27,669 nt of DNA from a virus: the IMG/VR virus record IMGVR_UViG_3300025890_000122, positions 1 to 27,669 of that record; one strand, written 5' to 3'. Numbering within the stretch: the stretch's first letter is position 1; each line of letters begins with the position of its first letter. Below the pieces are notes generated by a model. That model saw only the letters and a list, made by a program, of their open reading frames with translations. It did not search any database and was not told the DNA's origin. The position numbers and the translations under genes are program-made. Of the stretch, positions 17,815 to 26,117 are shown piece after piece.

Positions 17815-19008
17815 TTAAGCTGCATGATACGCAATAGTTGCTTCATTTGTTGCATCTAAGCTCGACGGTAACGCATGGAAGTTTACTTCCAGACCAATAA
17901 CATCTTCAATCTGGTGTGTAGGAATTTCCAAGTGTGCCGTTGGTATATCAATAACCAGTTTCGGTGCAGTGGCTCCTCCAACACTGAATACAAGATCCAT
18001 TGAGTTTGTTACGACATTCACAGCGGATGCAAGGTCATCAAATAGATCTGCACTTGTACCGGTAGTAGAAGTATTAGCAGAGGTTCCGGAGTTTAAGTAA
18101 CAAGTAAAGCTCCCAGATACATTTCGATTGCCTGTAACATTTCCAAGAGGCTGGTTTACAACGCATAGCTCTTCTGGAGTAAGATAAGTGAGATTATTCT
18201 CAAAAGTTATACTTCCACCCGTAAGTGTAAGAGCATAGTTTGCCATAAACTCATCGCCAGTTGTAGAATCCGCATTTGCATCACCAGTTGTTGCATCATC
18301 ATCTTGGTCGGTATTACCAATTGTAACTTCAAGAGTTGTAAGGCGATTTCGAATAAAGTTATTAGTACTATGCGGAATACCATCAGCAATAATTGCCGCG
18401 TGCCAGTTAGAGGGCATGGCAGGAATTTCTTCTAACAAAGAGCCTAAGCCATTCCAATCAAGAGTAAGAATACCATCAATATCAAAATCCATTGTAACAG
18501 TATTACAAACTGCACCGCTAATTCTGTAAATTGTTTGAGGGTTACCAGGACCCGCACTGTAGCTTGCTGGTGCTGTGCCACAGGCGCCCAGTACAAAGTA
18601 CAAAGTAAAAGTTCCTAACGCTGAAACATTACTATCATCAAAGTCAATAGTAGATGTAGTAGTAGCTTTAGTAATTGCATTTGCCCAGAGACGAGTGCCA
18701 GAAGTGTAAGCACCCGCATTTACAAAATTTGCCCAAAGGACTTCATCTGTATGATTACCCAGAGAGTTTGCTGTAAAAGGACGAGCATACATTTGCAAAT
18801 TCCATTCTGCAGGCTCAAACGCATCTGTAAACATTCTACGACCTCGACGAGAAACCCCGGTCAAGTCTGCCATTTCTGATACTGATACCTCGGTAGTAGC
18901 AGTAGATTGTGAAAAAGAAAACCCATCAAGTACCGGAAGTTCCCAATAATTGGTACCGTCTGATGCATACACATGGGTATTCCGTGAGAGTTGTAATTGT
19001 GCTGCCAT
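17815..19008 (-). CDS. Major tail tube protein
   Basis: This 397-aa beta-rich protein lies directly after the tail-terminator-containing gene, the usual place of the main tube protein. It opens MAAQLQLSRNTHVYASDGTN, a strand-rich tube N-terminus, and ends with a typical closing segment (LEIPTHQIEDVIGLEVNFHA...). Little Lys/Arg and much Thr/Ser/Gly fit a self-assembling tube subunit. It is long compared with plain tube proteins, so an extra surface domain may be present; residues about 210-270 (acidic DDDATTGDANADSTTGDE) look like an insertion. A strong AGGAG precedes the ATG (minus strand, 19021-19017), and a terminator follows at 17771-17796, consistent with high expression. Hexameric rings would stack to build the tail. 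Confidence 0.85.
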   Translation of the reverse strand: MAAQLQLSRNTHVYASDGTNYWELPVLDGFSFSQSTATTEVSVSEMADLTGVSRRGRRMFTDAFEPAEWNLQMYARPFTANSLGNHTDEVLWANFVNAGAYTSGTRLWANAITKATTTSTIDFDDSNVSALGTFTLYFVLGACGTAPASYSAGPGNPQTIYRISGAVCNTVTMDFDIDGILTLDWNGLGSLLEEIPAMPSNWHAAIIADGIPHSTNNFIRNRLTTLEVTIGNTDQDDDATTGDANADSTTGDEFMANYALTLTGGSITFENNLTYLTPEELCVVNQPLGNVTGNRNVSGSFTCYLNSGTSANTSTTGTSADLFDDLASAVNVVTNSMDLVFSVGGATAPKLVIDIPTAHLEIPTHQIEDVIGLEVNFHALPSSLDATNEATIAYHAA

Positions 19009-19072: not shown

Positions 19073-22030
19073 TTAGTAATGAACCTGTATTAAGATTTCT
19101 CCTACTCCATACGGCTCAAGAACTCCTTCGTCAGTTTCGATACTGACTATTTTAATGTCGAGTGTTTTTTGAGCAACTCCTTGCTTATCTGTATAAGATA
19201 AGGCGGCTTGCTCATCTAATACTGTTTCTACATCTTCTAGTAGTTTATCAAGCGCTATGACTGCATCTTCTTCTTGCACATAACATCTTATTGTTATGCT
19301 TAAGTACCGATCACGATATCCTGCAGCTTGATACTCTCTAGTTTCCGACCCTGCATTTAAATGAATTGCAGGAAATTCTTCTATTTCATCCCAGAACTTT
19401 AGTCTTGGATGTACATTGTTAAATACATCAGTTAAAAAAGCCGCGCTTCCGTTAATTTTCTTTAATTCTCTAACTATAGCATCTACTATTGAGGAGCGTC
19501 TAGTTGTATGAGGCCGTCCAACATAAGTTGTAAAAGTTCCACCACTCGAAGTAGGAGGCGCTGTAGGCGCAGGAGCAATTGTAAAAGTAGAAGTAGCTAC
19601 AGAGGTACCTGTAGGGCTTCCAGTTCTAATTGTTAGAGTTCCTTGTGTGGCAGTACTTGATACAGCTGCTAAAGTAAAAGAACCTCTATTTGAGTTTATA
19701 GTAAATTGACCTGAAGAAACACTTGTTACTTGAAAGCTACTAGTTGGGGTGGCTTCCCAATATAAAACTGTTCCATTAGAAACATTTTGTGTTTCTACTG
19801 CAACAGTTATAGGGGTACCTACTGTTATAGTACTTGGTACATCAATAAAATAAGTAGGCGGCAAGAGCTGCACTGGCTCAGTAATTGTAAAAGTGGTCGT
19901 TGCTACGACTGTCCCGCTCGTACTTCCAGTCCTAATTTCTATTGTTGCTGTTTCATCCCCTTCTGTTGCTGAGTCCTCGACTGGGGATAGTGTAAAAGAG
20001 CCGATATTATTATTAATATTAAAGCTGCCGTAGGGAATAGAAAAATCTGCGGCGGGTGTGGCTGTCCAATATAGTGTAGTACCATCTGTAACATTATTTG
20101 CGGACACATTTATGGTGTCTGTTGAACCTTCTTCAATAGTCACTGGAGCTGTAACAGAATAAGTAGGTGCTAGCGTATTATACTGCTGATAAGCGATTCT
20201 GTTGGGGCCTCCCATCAAGGCACCCCCTGCAGCAGGCAAGTGGCTTCTCCAACCCACTTCTACTCCTGCTACTGTAATTCCATCTATGTAGTTAGGGTCG
20301 TCTGGGTACCCCTCCATAATAGCGTTTTCTATAGTAGCATTATTATACGAAGTTGCTACAAAAGTTTTTAGTTGTGCCGGAGTTAGTCCAGGATTTTTTT
20401 CTAAAATACAAGATAAAATTCCTGCAACTCCCGGAGCCGCCATTGAAGTACCAGTTAATTTAATCAAGCCTTCTGTAGCGTCTAGGGGGTGACTGATTTC
20501 TGTAGCCCCTTGAAGAACGTATTTATTGGGGCCGTCCAACCTCCTGCCTGTGGATGTACTTACAAAAGGGCCGCTTCCACTAGAAGCTCCTAATATATAC
20601 GAGCCTGGATGCCATAATGCAACTCCGGGACCTCTTCCGGAAGAGCTATGCATTGCTATTTTGTATGGCCCGCGCGGGCGGCCTGGACCATCTTCTACTT
20701 GAAAAGTACGCCTGTAGGTTGTGTTCAAGTTGCCTACTATAAAAGAATCTGGATGATGTATTCCTCCTCTATGTAGATAGTGGGTTCCTGAATTTATCCC
20801 AAGATAAGGAGTTGTTGGTGCAGGACTAGGTGTTGCAAAAGTAATTGTATTATTCCAGTCTACATGAGAGGGCTCTGCAATATACTCATTAGTATTTCCT
20901 GCAGAGGTAACTACATGAACTCCTTCGTCAATCAACTCCTCTATGTCTGCTACCATAGTAGGCGAGTAGTAGGGTATTTTTGCCTGAAGATAAGGCCAGT
21001 TAGCTCCTCCACCGCTTGCATTGTCACTATCGTACCAAGAGTATGAAACTCCGTAACGAAGATTTCTATGTCTGTGATCGTCTACTGTATTGTTATTTGG
21101 TCGTAAATCTGCATCTGAAGAATAGGTATTGCCTCTATAATTAATTGAACTGATATAGTCTGATCTAAAGAAGAAAGTCCCGCCCCAGCTCATATTTACA
21201 ATAGTCGGGCGCTTATTTCCATTAGAGTCTACAGGCTTATTTCTATGAAATATTTTTATTTGATCAAAAGCATCTGCATAGTCGGTATAGTCACTCAGCC
21301 CTCCCCATTCCGCGGTCATCGCTCCAAATTGCAGCTTTTGCGCGTAAATTTGAGCTCCTCTAGCATACCCCATGCTTTTACCGGCGGCAGTACTTGCTAC
21401 ATGAGTTCCGTGGCCAACCCAATCTCTATAGTAGTCATTAAGATTAGAGGGACTTGTACCAATTCCAGTTACTGCCGCCCAATCGATTTTATTAACTCTA
21501 CTTACGCCATTTGCATCTTGAAATTCATAGTGCTCTGCATCTACTCCGGTATCTTGAATAACTATATCTACGCCTTCACCGTCGGCCGTGTAAACATAAG
21601 TGCCTGTATAAGTATTATTCCAACTGCCGGTGCTTGTGTCTAGACCCCAAGGCTCTGCTTTCTTTGTTATTCCTCCTGCTTGAGGAAACTGCCAAGGATA
21701 CCCTTCTCCGTCGCTAAACTCGTCTATTTGCCCCCATTTCCTGTAAGTTCTTTCCGGGTCTGAACCTTGTCCATCATGGCCTATTTCTATATGAGGGTTC
21801 TGCCAGTAGGGGATTTCAACAGCAATTACGTCTTCATTTGATTGTAGCTCACTCGCTTCTGCGTCTGTCAAATAATAATGAGTGAGTCTAGCACTCGCGG
21901 GCCTTTCATTTGCTACTTCTACTTGGCGATTAGGTATTCCATCTCGTCCTTGGAGTTCAAGCATTTGTTCATGGAATCGAGTAAAATCAACTCCTTTTTT
22001 AAGAACAACTATGTACTCTTTTTCGGACAT
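19073..22030 (-). CDS. Subtilisin-family (S8) protease fused to two Ig-like repeats and a tail-terminator-like C-terminus
   Basis: This 985-aa protein joins parts that are normally separate. Residues 1-78 resemble an I9-type subtilisin propeptide (EYIVVLKKGVDF... ending in VIAVEIP). The protease body has all key residues: D160 (QDTGVD), H207 (GHGTHVAS), oxyanion N379 (SAGNTN) and S529 (TGTSMAAPGVAG). Two repeats at about 622-718 and 725-818 share the pattern VTDGTTLYWTATP / VSNGTVLYWEATP, Ig- or Calx-beta-like. After a Thr/Pro linker, residues 836-985 form a compact domain (SSIVDAIVRELKK ... FPAIHLNAG ... LSITIRCYVQEEDAVIALDK) that matches the look of siphophage tail terminator proteins. No signal peptide is present. 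The gene sits between the neck protein and the tube, the terminator's usual slot, with AGGAG ahead of its ATG. The terminator identity is by pattern and position; the protease call is firm. The fusion could place six protease copies around the neck, or release itself by self-cleavage. Confidence 0.82.
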   Translation of the reverse strand: MSEKEYIVVLKKGVDFTRFHEQMLELQGRDGIPNRQVEVANERPASARLTHYYLTDAEASELQSNEDVIAVEIPYWQNPHIEIGHDGQGSDPERTYRKWGQIDEFSDGEGYPWQFPQAGGITKKAEPWGLDTSTGSWNNTYTGTYVYTADGEGVDIVIQDTGVDAEHYEFQDANGVSRVNKIDWAAVTGIGTSPSNLNDYYRDWVGHGTHVASTAAGKSMGYARGAQIYAQKLQFGAMTAEWGGLSDYTDYADAFDQIKIFHRNKPVDSNGNKRPTIVNMSWGGTFFFRSDYISSINYRGNTYSSDADLRPNNNTVDDHRHRNLRYGVSYSWYDSDNASGGGANWPYLQAKIPYYSPTMVADIEELIDEGVHVVTSAGNTNEYIAEPSHVDWNNTITFATPSPAPTTPYLGINSGTHYLHRGGIHHPDSFIVGNLNTTYRRTFQVEDGPGRPRGPYKIAMHSSSGRGPGVALWHPGSYILGASSGSGPFVSTSTGRRLDGPNKYVLQGATEISHPLDATEGLIKLTGTSMAAPGVAGILSCILEKNPGLTPAQLKTFVATSYNNATIENAIMEGYPDDPNYIDGITVAGVEVGWRSHLPAAGGALMGGPNRIAYQQYNTLAPTYSVTAPVTIEEGSTDTINVSANNVTDGTTLYWTATPAADFSIPYGSFNINNNIGSFTLSPVEDSATEGDETATIEIRTGSTSGTVVATTTFTITEPVQLLPPTYFIDVPSTITVGTPITVAVETQNVSNGTVLYWEATPTSSFQVTSVSSGQFTINSNRGSFTLAAVSSTATQGTLTIRTGSPTGTSVATSTFTIAPAPTAPPTSSGGTFTTYVGRPHTTRRSSIVDAIVRELKKINGSAAFLTDVFNNVHPRLKFWDEIEEFPAIHLNAGSETREYQAAGYRDRYLSITIRCYVQEEDAVIALDKLLEDVETVLDEQAALSYTDKQGVAQKTLDIKIVSIETDEGVLEPYGVGEILIQVHY

Positions 22031-23452
22031 TTATACTCTCCTAGTGTAGAATCTTCCAATAGCAAACTGAGTTGCAATTTCTCTTATAGACTTATCAATT
22101 AATTTTCGAGGGTCTCTATTCACAGAGCCTTGAGCGTTTCCTTGCTCAAATGTTTCATATGGGTTTCTCATATAGGTGTAGCCCACACTTGGAAATCCTT
22201 GTGCAGTTTGAGCAATGTCTGTAACTCGTACACTGCTTGCAAATCTTCCTGTTTGGTACTGCAACGCGGGCGGTACCATATTTTTTGCTATTACTCCTGG
22301 CAGTTGTTGGTTGAAAATGCCTATGTAACTTGCTATCGAATAAGGCGATTTTTGTGCCTTTGGCGAAGGTAGCTTTACTTTAGGGACAGCTACTTTACCC
22401 AAATTAAGAGCAGGATTTTTTGTTAACTTACCTTTTTTTGACGTTCCAGCACTTCGTGTAGAATTTTTTACTTTAGGTATTTTAGAAACCGTAACACCCT
22501 TTACTTTAGTAAACTTTGTGAGTACTGCTTTTGTCGCTTTCTTTTCATATCTTTGAGCGGGGCTATCTGAACCTTTTAAACCTGCTATAGGAGTTTTATT
22601 ATTTAAACGCTCGATAGCGGCTCGAAGTTGCCGCATGAGCTTATCTTTGGCCTGCGCACTGGCAAAACCGGCTTTTTGATTTCCTGCACGGCTTTCAGCA
22701 GTAATTGTGAAATCCTCTGTGGAGTCGTTTCGTACAATTTCTAAGTCTATACCTAATTGCTGTAGATTTGACATTAACACTTCGCGCTTCGCCTTAGAAG
22801 TATAGTTTTTATTTACTGCGGTATCAATGGCATCTGCAATTCGGCTTTCTAAAATGCCTTCTCCTTCCATGTGCCCGCCTTCTACAAGATCAGCCCCTTT
22901 ATCAACTTCTGTTTTACCTTCTTTCATGAGGCCACTTGAAATATATCGACCTTGCTCTTTATCGTAGTAGCCGTCTTTTACGGTTTTATTTAATCTTCTA
23001 CCGTACTCTTCTTTTAGAAAGCTATTTAATCCAAGTACAAAAGAATTTAACTCGTTCGTATATAGTTTTTTTAACTTTGTAAAATTATCAAAATTTGGGT
23101 TTTCTGCATTTGACTTCGGATTAATAGCTTCATTTAAAGTTACTTTAATAAAATGTTGATTTGAAACTACTATTACTTCGCGAGTCTTTTTAAAAGTTTT
23201 AGCGTTAGCTTGGCATGCAGCAAGAATCTTATACGCTCCATCCTCTAAATGCTTTTGAACCTGGGCTTTTCCAAAAAGAGCAAGAATGTTTCTAACTTCA
23301 AACTCTTTTTTTATCTCTTGTATAAATAATCGAGGAAGAAAAACGAAATGATTTGTGCGCCTATCCGCAGTCTGGCTTCTGTATGCTTTACTACTTTTAC
23401 TTAGGTCTTTTTCTAAAGATACTAAAAAAGCCTGCAGGCTAGAACGAGACAT
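22031..23452 (-). CDS. Large neck / tail-completion protein (HK97 gp10-like C-terminus)
   Basis: This 473-aa protein sits between the head-tail connector and the terminator-containing gene, where head-closure or tail-completion proteins are encoded. The last ~100 residues carry a pattern I associate with gp10-type proteins: YQTGRFASSVRVTDIAQTAQ, then PSVGYTYMRNPYETFEQG, then RDPRKLIDKSIREIATQFAI. The first ~240 residues are charged and helical and are extra compared with the usual 130-200 aa. Residues about 280-360 are unusually Lys/Ser/Thr/Pro-rich (KKATKAVLTKFTKVKGVTVS... KNSTRSAGTSKKGKLTK), a basic linker that could bind DNA or be cleaved. The ATG overlaps the preceding stop (TAATG), and the stop abuts the next start, so the genes are coupled. 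Function by position and motif; moderate confidence. Confidence 0.6.
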   Translation of the reverse strand: MSRSSLQAFLVSLEKDLSKSSKAYRSQTADRRTNHFVFLPRLFIQEIKKEFEVRNILALFGKAQVQKHLEDGAYKILAACQANAKTFKKTREVIVVSNQHFIKVTLNEAINPKSNAENPNFDNFTKLKKLYTNELNSFVLGLNSFLKEEYGRRLNKTVKDGYYDKEQGRYISSGLMKEGKTEVDKGADLVEGGHMEGEGILESRIADAIDTAVNKNYTSKAKREVLMSNLQQLGIDLEIVRNDSTEDFTITAESRAGNQKAGFASAQAKDKLMRQLRAAIERLNNKTPIAGLKGSDSPAQRYEKKATKAVLTKFTKVKGVTVSKIPKVKNSTRSAGTSKKGKLTKNPALNLGKVAVPKVKLPSPKAQKSPYSIASYIGIFNQQLPGVIAKNMVPPALQYQTGRFASSVRVTDIAQTAQGFPSVGYTYMRNPYETFEQGNAQGSVNRDPRKLIDKSIREIATQFAIGRFYTRRV

Positions 23453-24092: not shown

Positions 24093-26117
24093 TTAAACTG
24101 CTGTTTGAACAACCTTAACAACCGACACATCAGTAGTACCGTTATTAGCAACGAGTTGGTTGAAGCCGAGTGACTGGCTAGCAACGATTACTCGACGCTG
24201 ATTAAGTACTTCGTAATCTTGCTCTACGGCTACACCGCGGAGACGTGGGATTACGTGATTACGCAAGTTAACTGCATAACCTATAGTCTGTGATACAGTT
24301 GAAGACTCTGCAGGCAGTTGATCAGACACAACTACTGGAGTTCCATAGATAGCACCTACAGTACCTGTAATCTTCGTTGCGAGATCAGAACCTACGTCTG
24401 TAATATCAGCAAACTGGCTATCAGCAATCAGATCGTAGTAACGATTCTGGGACACGACATAGATCAAATCTTCTGGCATCATGCCATACTTGCCCATCAA
24501 CTTACGAGCTGAAAGGAAGTCCGCTGCGTCAAGAGCACCAGCATTGGTTGAGCCGACAACTGAAGATACAAATGCGTTAGTACCTGCAAGTGCCTCAAGA
24601 CCATCAAATGCCTGAGTACCACCAGTGGTTGCGTTAAGAACAGCGTCATCTACTGCGCGAGCGTGAGCACGTGCAACAGACTCAACAAGCATTGGCATCA
24701 AGTTAACAAGAACTTCTTCGTCAATGTTGTTGTCCATGAAAGTAGTCGAGATCAATCGAGTGGCTTTCAGGATTACTTGCTTAGCGTTATACTGAGCGTT
24801 AGTGACTTGAGGACGGTTCTCCAAGTTACCTGCGGTATCAGTGTTTGATCCCCAAGCTGCGGGACCTGCGTCTGTCTGGATTGGCAGTACTTGAGTCTGT
24901 GAGTTAATTGTGATCTCACGGAACGCTTGTGCCAACTTAAGCTCGAGCATGATTTCCTTCTCAATTTGAGTAGAAACTTCTTGAGCAATATCACCAGCGT
25001 TAGCTGCATAGTTGATACCTGCTTTTTGCATCAAGTTCTTAGAGTAGTCAGTTTCCCAGCCCTTACCTGTCATAACACCTAGAAGGTGCCCATACATGAA
25101 GTCCTTACCAAACTTAGAAAGGTCTCCGTCATGGCTACGATCTCCAAATACACGCTTAGACTCGCGCATTTTTGTAATCTCTTCTGACTTCTCTTCGAGA
25201 TCAGACTTATACTTAGCCATTACTTCTTCGATTTTAGCATCTTTCTCAGCTAGTTTAGCTTCGACATCTGCCATAAGACGATCAGCACCTGACTCTACAC
25301 CAACCTGAATGGCTGATTGAACTTCTTGCTCTTGTTGAGCTTTTTGCTCGGCTTCCACCTGAGCTTTCTCAACGGCTTCTTGTGCTGTCTTTTCTTCAAC
25401 AGCCTTTTGCTCGGCTTGCTTCATTGCGATCTTAGCAGCAGTCTCCTCCGCTACTTTTTTAGCAAAAGCTTCCAAGTCGATTTCGGGAGTTTTTACTTCT
25501 TCCGACATTTGGATCTCCTTATTCGCGGGTTTTTCCGCGTCGTCCGGTGTTTCACTAGCTATAAATGAATTTTCATTCTTAGCCAGAGACTGACCGGCTA
25601 GATCTACACGATTTGTGAAAGTTTTTTTGAATTCATTGTACTCGTCTACGGAGTCAAATGATTTCGCCAGAGAAAAAGTCGCTGCTTGGTTACATGGTAC
25701 CGATACCACTGATACCTCAAACAACTCAGCATCCTTAATCTTTAATCCGTCGGTTTCCGCTAGGTAATCAGCATCCTTGACTCGGAAACCAACAGAAAAT
25801 GCTCCAAGAATGCCTTCTTTTACAAGCTGCGCAACATGATCGGGCGCAGATTTAGAAATTTTAGCCTTTAGTTCAAGACCGTTTTCAGTGACTTTAAGTC
25901 CTGTAGCGCGTCCAATAGGCTTGTTATAATCATGATTGAAAAGAATAATAGGATTCTTTTCAAAGTTTTGAAGTCCGCCCTTTGTCCAAGCAGTTGCATC
26001 AATAGTATCACCTGCGCGGTCAAAGTCGTGGGTACTTGCCATACCACAAATATGTACACCACCATCGTCCTCTTCTAGAGCTTTAAATGTAGAGGTGAAA
26101 TTAAAAATCTTTTCCAT
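24093..26117 (-). CDS. Prohead protease, scaffold and HK97-type major capsid protein in one ORF
   Basis: This 674-aa ORF contains three parts. Residues 1-150 are an S78-family prohead protease: H62 in FNHDYNKPIG, S108 in GAFSVGFR, E134 in ELFEVSVVSVP form the expected triad order. Residues about 205-320 are a charged coiled coil rich in Glu, Lys, Ala and Gln (a delta/scaffold domain). From about 330 to 674 follows an HK97-fold capsid with typical blocks: EKEIMLELKLAQAFREITIN, RPQVTNAQYNAKQVILKATRLIS, YVVSQNRYYDLIAD, AIYGTPVVVSDQLP and RLRGVAVEQDYEVLNQRR. An in-frame ATG at residue 204 with a strong AAGGAG should give a 471-aa scaffold-capsid product at higher yield. Cleavage by the protease probably removes the coiled coil near residue 320-330. 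Codons in the capsid part look more GC-rich and regular than in neighbours. A terminator follows. Confidence 0.93.
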   Translation of the reverse strand: MEKIFNFTSTFKALEEDDGGVHICGMASTHDFDRAGDTIDATAWTKGGLQNFEKNPIILFNHDYNKPIGRATGLKVTENGLELKAKISKSAPDHVAQLVKEGILGAFSVGFRVKDADYLAETDGLKIKDAELFEVSVVSVPCNQAATFSLAKSFDSVDEYNEFKKTFTNRVDLAGQSLAKNENSFIASETPDDAEKPANKEIQMSEEVKTPEIDLEAFAKKVAEETAAKIAMKQAEQKAVEEKTAQEAVEKAQVEAEQKAQQEQEVQSAIQVGVESGADRLMADVEAKLAEKDAKIEEVMAKYKSDLEEKSEEITKMRESKRVFGDRSHDGDLSKFGKDFMYGHLLGVMTGKGWETDYSKNLMQKAGINYAANAGDIAQEVSTQIEKEIMLELKLAQAFREITINSQTQVLPIQTDAGPAAWGSNTDTAGNLENRPQVTNAQYNAKQVILKATRLISTTFMDNNIDEEVLVNLMPMLVESVARAHARAVDDAVLNATTGGTQAFDGLEALAGTNAFVSSVVGSTNAGALDAADFLSARKLMGKYGMMPEDLIYVVSQNRYYDLIADSQFADITDVGSDLATKITGTVGAIYGTPVVVSDQLPAESSTVSQTIGYAVNLRNHVIPRLRGVAVEQDYEVLNQRRVIVASQSLGFNQLVANNGTTDVSVVKVVQTAV
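25506..25539 (-). promoter_or_regulatory. Internal ribosome binding site and hairpin for separate scaffold-capsid translation
   Basis: On the minus strand AAGGAG (25520-25515) lies six bases ahead of an in-frame ATG (25508-25506, residue 204 of the protease-capsid ORF, MSEEVKTPEI). Just upstream CGCGG AAAAAC CCGCG (25539-25524) can form a 5-bp hairpin that would sit beside but not cover the site. Protein composition changes exactly here from an inter-domain linker to the coiled-coil scaffold. This supports a second, internal start that yields capsid in excess of protease. Confidence 0.72.

Follow-up and report, generated by a model that had tools for sequence, protein, structure and literature searches.

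The usual view of tail terminators is that of minimal ring proteins, which end the growth of the tail tube and join it to the head. In phage T5 the terminator, p142, is a bare 161-residue protein and forms a hexamer in the neck (PMC11784142). In lactococcal phages of the 936 and TP901-1 types, the neck passage structure is an optional collar with host-facing modules that varies among close relatives (PMC6669499); it is a dedicated protein bearing mostly carbohydrate-binding domains and has been proposed to sit at the tail-capsid connector or portal. Phage tail tube and capsid proteins can likewise bear Ig-like domains, which are optional beta-sandwiches on virion proteins; the known Ig-like classes comprise fibres, baseplate, tail tube, capsid and Hoc, with the terminator unlisted (PMC9022992).

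Subtilisin-like proteases (MEROPS S8) of T4-like cyanophages (P-SSM2, S-RSM4, S-H38, S-CREM1, Sf-FR1; PHROG 9158) are encoded by separate genes beside baseplate or tail-fibre genes and are unjoined to a terminator. Marine T4-like phages often carry related S8 genes, for which we found no described function. In gp144 of the T4-like phage S-SCSM1 (YP_010669921), S8 is fused to lectin-like domains, a LamG/ConA-like region annotated as baseplate, and the record notes a virion protein; according to the corresponding paper, virion proteins were identified by mass spectrometry (PMC9602691).

Here we describe a viral contig (IMG/VR record IMGVR_UViG_3300025890_000122, positions 1 to 27,669; "the window" denotes this whole stretch of 27,669 nucleotides) in which an S8 protease and a T5 p142-type terminator are parts of one protein. 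In contrast to T5 p142, about 837 residues of protease and repeats stand in front of the terminator. The fusion resembles gp144 in placing S8 inside a large protein, but gp144 has no terminator; the neck passage structure, unlike the fusion, involves neither terminator nor protease, and its hallmarks (BppU-like N-terminal ring domain, coiled coil, carbohydrate-binding tip) are absent from the profiles and the model of the fusion. No subtilisin-terminator fusion was described in the literature searched and, across this literature and 50,697 phage records, we found no described terminator of the p142 type that carries an enzyme, its parts being known separately.

Results

The gene on the minus strand at 19073-22030 is a single uninterrupted open reading frame of 985 aa with an ATG start. 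From N- to C-terminus, it encodes an I9-like propeptide, an S8 protease, two Ig/Calx-beta-like repeats, a Pro/Ser/Thr linker and a p142-type terminator. The features of the locus are as follows.

22031..23452, minus strand: T5 p143-like tail completion gene, directly upstream (PHROG 3725, E=7.1e-5; PF25747, E=1.7e-5 at 25 bits, slightly under the cut-off of 27)
22038..22042, minus strand: Shine-Dalgarno AGGAG, within the 3' end of the upstream gene (ACACTAGGAGA); also precedes stand-alone terminators
19073..22030, minus strand: whole fusion gene, 985 aa (open frame; architecture also in contigs L002, L003 and L004)
21779..22030, minus strand: I9-like propeptide, residues 1-84 (AlphaFold; conserved in other phage S8 proteins)
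20342..21580, minus strand: predicted Peptidase S8 catalytic domain, residues 151-563 (PF00082, E=6.7e-25; PDB relatives aqualysin and proteinase K)
21551..21553, minus strand: catalytic Asp160 (invariant alignment column)
21410..21412, minus strand: catalytic His207, HGTHVA (invariant alignment column)
20894..20896, minus strand: oxyanion Asn379, SAGN (invariant alignment column)
20444..20446, minus strand: catalytic Ser529, GTSMAAP (invariant alignment column)
19865..20170, minus strand: Ig/Calx-beta-like repeat 1, residues 621-722 (likeness to repeats after S8 in marine phage proteins)
19565..19864, minus strand: Ig/Calx-beta-like repeat 2, residues 723-822 (51% identity to repeat 1; beta-sandwich in the model)
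19520..19564, minus strand: Pro/Ser/Thr/Gly linker, residues 823-837, joint between module and terminator (translation; low pLDDT at 823-842)
19076..19519, minus strand: T5 p142-type tail terminator domain, residues 838-985 (PF23818, hmmsearch, Foldseek, dN/dS)
17815..19008, minus strand: major tail tube gene, next downstream (PHROG 3575, E=9.8e-43)

The PHROG profiles divide the frame between PHROG 9158 (residues 2-568, E=2.7e-54) and the tail terminator PHROG 3907 (E=4.2e-34); together with Pfam and the alignment, this bears out the initial annotation, which had read one ORF with an intact subtilisin body and a C-terminal terminator.

In the window, structural genes on the minus strand form a block that runs from head to tail. 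Its gene order is that of the T5-like Vibrio phage Ceto (portal, small gene, protease and capsid, next gene, tail completion, terminator, tube, baseplate tube, chaperone), and the fusion occupies the p142 slot between the tail completion and tube genes. With a portal that shares about 40% identity with those of cultured T5-like phages, the phage is a distant, uncultured relative of this group. The ribosome-binding site AGGAG of the fusion is the one serving stand-alone terminators in relatives. A bare terminator started at the domain boundary is ruled out by the lack of any ATG, GTG or TTG between codons 723 and 918 of the window's fusion. The prohead protease (S78 domain, Pfam) at 24093-26117 on the minus strand is joined to the major capsid protein in one 674-aa ORF; in Ceto and Proteus T5-like relatives, the two are listed as separate proteins. 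The p143-like gene at 22031-23452 (minus strand) encodes 473 aa, far more than the 255 positions of its model, with conserved ends and a hypervariable middle (43-49% DNA identity between L003 and L004). Past the window, a small ORF directly upstream of the portal (L002:27-446) shows by eye an HNH-like CxxC...HH pattern and is retained in several relatives.

The C-terminal domain of the fusion is a complete T5 p142-type tail terminator. Phage_tail_terminator_7 (PF23818) matches residues 843-985 (E=1.3e-33; 116.3 bits against a cut-off of 27; profile positions 2-152 of 161), and a profile made from 30 relatives retrieves the terminators of T5 (8bcp, E=7.7e-26) and DT57C (3.5e-26) from the PDB with hmmsearch. 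The predicted structure of the domain (mean pLDDT 86) matches T5 p142 in Foldseek (8bcu, E=4.2e-14, TM 0.85) and, more weakly, lambda gpU (E=1.8e-5), the GTA terminator, T4 gp15 and others. Thus fold, homologous sequence and gene slot are shared over the whole domain with p142 of T5 and DT57C (PF23818; 8bcp, 8bcu, 9ilv, 8hqo). The comparison with known terminator structures upholds the assignment made in the initial annotation; its boundary moves from residue 836 to about 838. No other terminator was found among the window proteins scanned with PHROGs and Pfam or in the three fused sister contigs, and each of 16 records tested, these sisters included, gives a single PF23818 match; the fused copy must therefore serve as the terminator. 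Its dN/dS is 0.055 (window vs L003).

The S8 domain is of the proteinase-K type, with an Asp-His-Ser triad and an oxyanion Asn in canonical subtilase motifs. Aligned with four further S8 proteins of phages, the fusion shows no variation at D160, H207, N379 and S529, the residues correctly named at the outset. In the full-length predicted structure, the subtilisin body is modelled with mostly good confidence as far as about residue 430, and residues 485-549 and 558-620 are poorly predicted. Between the window and L003, the S8 domain has a dN/dS of 0.19 at a synonymous divergence of 0.88, and this purifying selection argues for a working enzyme. I9-type propeptides are common in subtilases. As for the I9-like propeptide initially proposed, AlphaFold gives residues 3-72 a beta-alpha-beta-beta-alpha-beta fold (block pLDDT 83-94), but the Pfam I9 profile has no score on the ORF at E<1. 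The two Ig-like repeats hold up, with 51% mutual identity and beta-sandwich folds in the model; the best-matching repeats after S8 in other marine phage proteins reach 51-56% identity to repeat 1. The linker is predicted to be disordered (low pLDDT, 823-842). In a fold search of the full-length model against the PDB, terminators came first, followed by mostly unspecific Ig matches. A CBM_6 match at 751-815 falls below the curated cut-off. NCBIfam mycosin and dentilisin identities were rejected, as their matches lie far below cut-off and reflect the common S8 core.

A scan of IMG/VR viral contigs gave 79 terminator loci, 76 of which are bare terminators of 149-154 aa without extension, and three of which (L002, L003, L004) carry the fusion; these records are fragments, perhaps incomplete, and records very near the window may fall outside the searches. 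L002 belongs to the same phage species as the window (99.4% DNA). L003 holds the whole fusion in 884 aa with a single repeat, and L004 holds it with one in-frame TAG. This TAG is at codon 550 within the otherwise open gene L004:6001-8643, whose terminator would need readthrough or restart at a downstream ATG; TAG is a normal stop in the relative L005. A profile scan, degenerate DNA scans and a bacterial-genome scan yielded no fused copies beyond the four contigs, and none of 50,697 cultured phage records covered 80% of the query. Two further candidates (L264, L265) were dismissed as chance 14-residue frames.

L005 and the window share 97% identity on both flanks, but L005 lacks the module and has a bare terminator starting with GTG. 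Between L003 and L004, DNA identity is 91-98% across the module, mostly 63-82% downstream and as little as 43-49% midway through the upstream gene; their synonymous difference amounts to 0.08 for the protease against 0.71 for the terminator, and the dN/dS of the protease in their modules is 0.48. L004 and the module-less L006 are 74-95% identical on both sides. Fused terminators are scattered among unfused ones in the tree, and a single clade is rejected (AU p=3e-65). Since L005 lacks the module between near-identical flanks and the modules of L003 and L004 are alike in divergent flanks, the block of protease and repeats is, judged by sequence, a horizontally exchanged cassette joined to the N-terminus of the terminator. 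Each time, the junction lies after the last codon of the upstream gene and before the first helix of the terminator, and the start codon and N-terminus of the terminator appear to be the fixed point of the swap. No foreign GC signature was seen, the protease part having 43.7% against 36-44% for the structural genes of the window. No S8 gene was found elsewhere in 13 module-less records (up to 78.7 kb, possibly incomplete). An assembly chimera, or an error joining separate genes, had been considered from the start and is ruled out by the architecture shared among four contigs, by purifying selection and by the start sequence of L005, which is not derivable by simple module deletion. The unfused terminator in homologous phages is an alternative allele without protease, not one of two separate genes.

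The nearest other proteases are mostly 30-38% identical and occur in marine contigs and cyanophages. The S8 proteins of the T4-like cyanophages named above share the propeptide-plus-S8 layout at 22-33% identity, and wider marine members of the PHROG 9158 type have the same repeat family as the fusion, some of the protease relatives carrying it after S8. In annotated genomes, these relatives adjoin tail-fibre, baseplate wedge or tail-pin genes, and in unannotated contigs several neighbours match baseplate or fibre PHROGs. The marine phage S8 proteins are a widespread and varied protease group. Four S8 ORFs (L110, L113, L130, L168) may, judged by eye, have a cupredoxin-like end segment after the repeats, and five S8 proteins (L090, L093, L095, L099, L121) have a different long C-terminus. 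A 3.2-kb contig in a bacterial bin (L247, Rubrivirga MAG contig JAAXJP010000012.1) encodes a 523-aa phage-type S8 gene and is probably viral.

Discussion

Our results are best read, and we think probably, as an accessory, neck-anchored virion protease acting on proteins of host or environmental surfaces. For the fusion we infer a hexameric state, presence in the virion, outward exposure, activity and a substrate. The C-terminal domain would form a hexameric ring capping the tail tube under the head, and the two Ig/Calx-beta-like domains with the flexible linker would act as a stalk holding the S8 protease outside the neck. The propeptide would assist folding, inhibit the enzyme and then be removed by autocleavage, so that a virion could have a collar of up to six active proteases. 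Their targets would most likely be proteins at the host cell surface or in its vicinity (surface layer, appendages, matrix), whose cleavage would aid adsorption or release. The module itself is swapped among related marine phages at the start codon and N-terminus of the terminator. An outer position of the arms seems likely, because the DNA-passing lumen of the ring could hardly hold six arms of ~90 kDa. T5 p142 with an N-terminal His tag is a soluble monomer and with a C-terminal tag gives aberrant fibres (PMC11784142), which makes an N-terminal graft a plausible topology. A host surface or matrix protein is our preferred guess for the substrate, given the tail-associated relatives of the protease and the carbohydrate-binding collars borne on lactococcal necks. 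Some observations count against display at the neck: it lies at a distance from the tail tip, which makes the contact with the host and to which the protease relatives appear to belong; the TAG at codon 550 of L004 blocks the full protein without readthrough or restart; and the protease could be set free by autoproteolytic cleavage of the linker.

The last point leads to another reading, in which S8 would cleave the linker of its own chain, leaving the terminator to assemble by itself and the released protease to work in the dying host or its surroundings. Subtilisins self-process and the linker is predicted to be disordered, in keeping with such a release, but a separate gene would suffice for it, yet the fusion has been kept in four contigs and through several divergences, with repeats and linker retained; we consider this unlikely. 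The initial annotation had offered display at the neck and maturation as options. Delivery of S8 by the terminator to process neck, tail or head proteins would suit the location at the head-tail joint and the use of proteases by phages in head maturation. However, the window already has a prohead protease, and L005 (97% flanks; a record of only 9 kb) and other close relatives lack the module, and no S8 was found elsewhere in their records, so that conserved virion parts should not need the protease. These module-less relatives point to an accessory role, and maturation seems improbable, all the more as an essential function; display at the neck is the preferred option.

A mixed ring has also been considered, in which restart at Met606 would give an additional repeat-plus-terminator form and only some of the six subunits would carry the enzyme. 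The in-frame ATG is conserved after a purine-rich GGGGG (window) or GGAGG (L003, L004), and in L004 it sits 3' of the TAG codon. The residues around Met606, however, belong to a motif seen again in other S8 proteins, where L, W or M can stand at this position, so the DNA there may be constrained by the protein alone, and we regard a mixed ring as very unlikely. Finally, the fusion might lack function and be a short-lived product of gene joining that is heading for decay, in line with its rarity (four contigs), the nonsense codon in L004 and the dN/dS of 0.48 between the L003 and L004 proteases; against this stand the value of 0.19 between the more diverged S8 domains of the window and L003, the intact catalytic residues and the lack of any other terminator found, which make decay hardly credible.

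Each part of the fusion was known already, and what is new is a variant of neck or tail decoration, with an enzyme on a p142-type terminator. Returning to the accessory virion protease, a wider picture can be put forward tentatively, in which the neck ring would serve to mount an exchangeable enzyme: six subtilisins, controlled by their propeptides and held on Ig-like stalks, might form a catalytic collar that digests protein barriers around the host, with recombination at the N-terminus of the terminator moving them from one phage backbone to another. With its defined anchor and expected copy number, the fusion offers a handle on the S8 group of marine T4-like phages, and near-identical genomes with and without the cassette provide a natural test of the role of a virion-borne protease. 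If a terminator were shown to tolerate, and to carry naturally, about 837 extra residues of an enzyme, the neck would become a place where catalytic payloads can be displayed.
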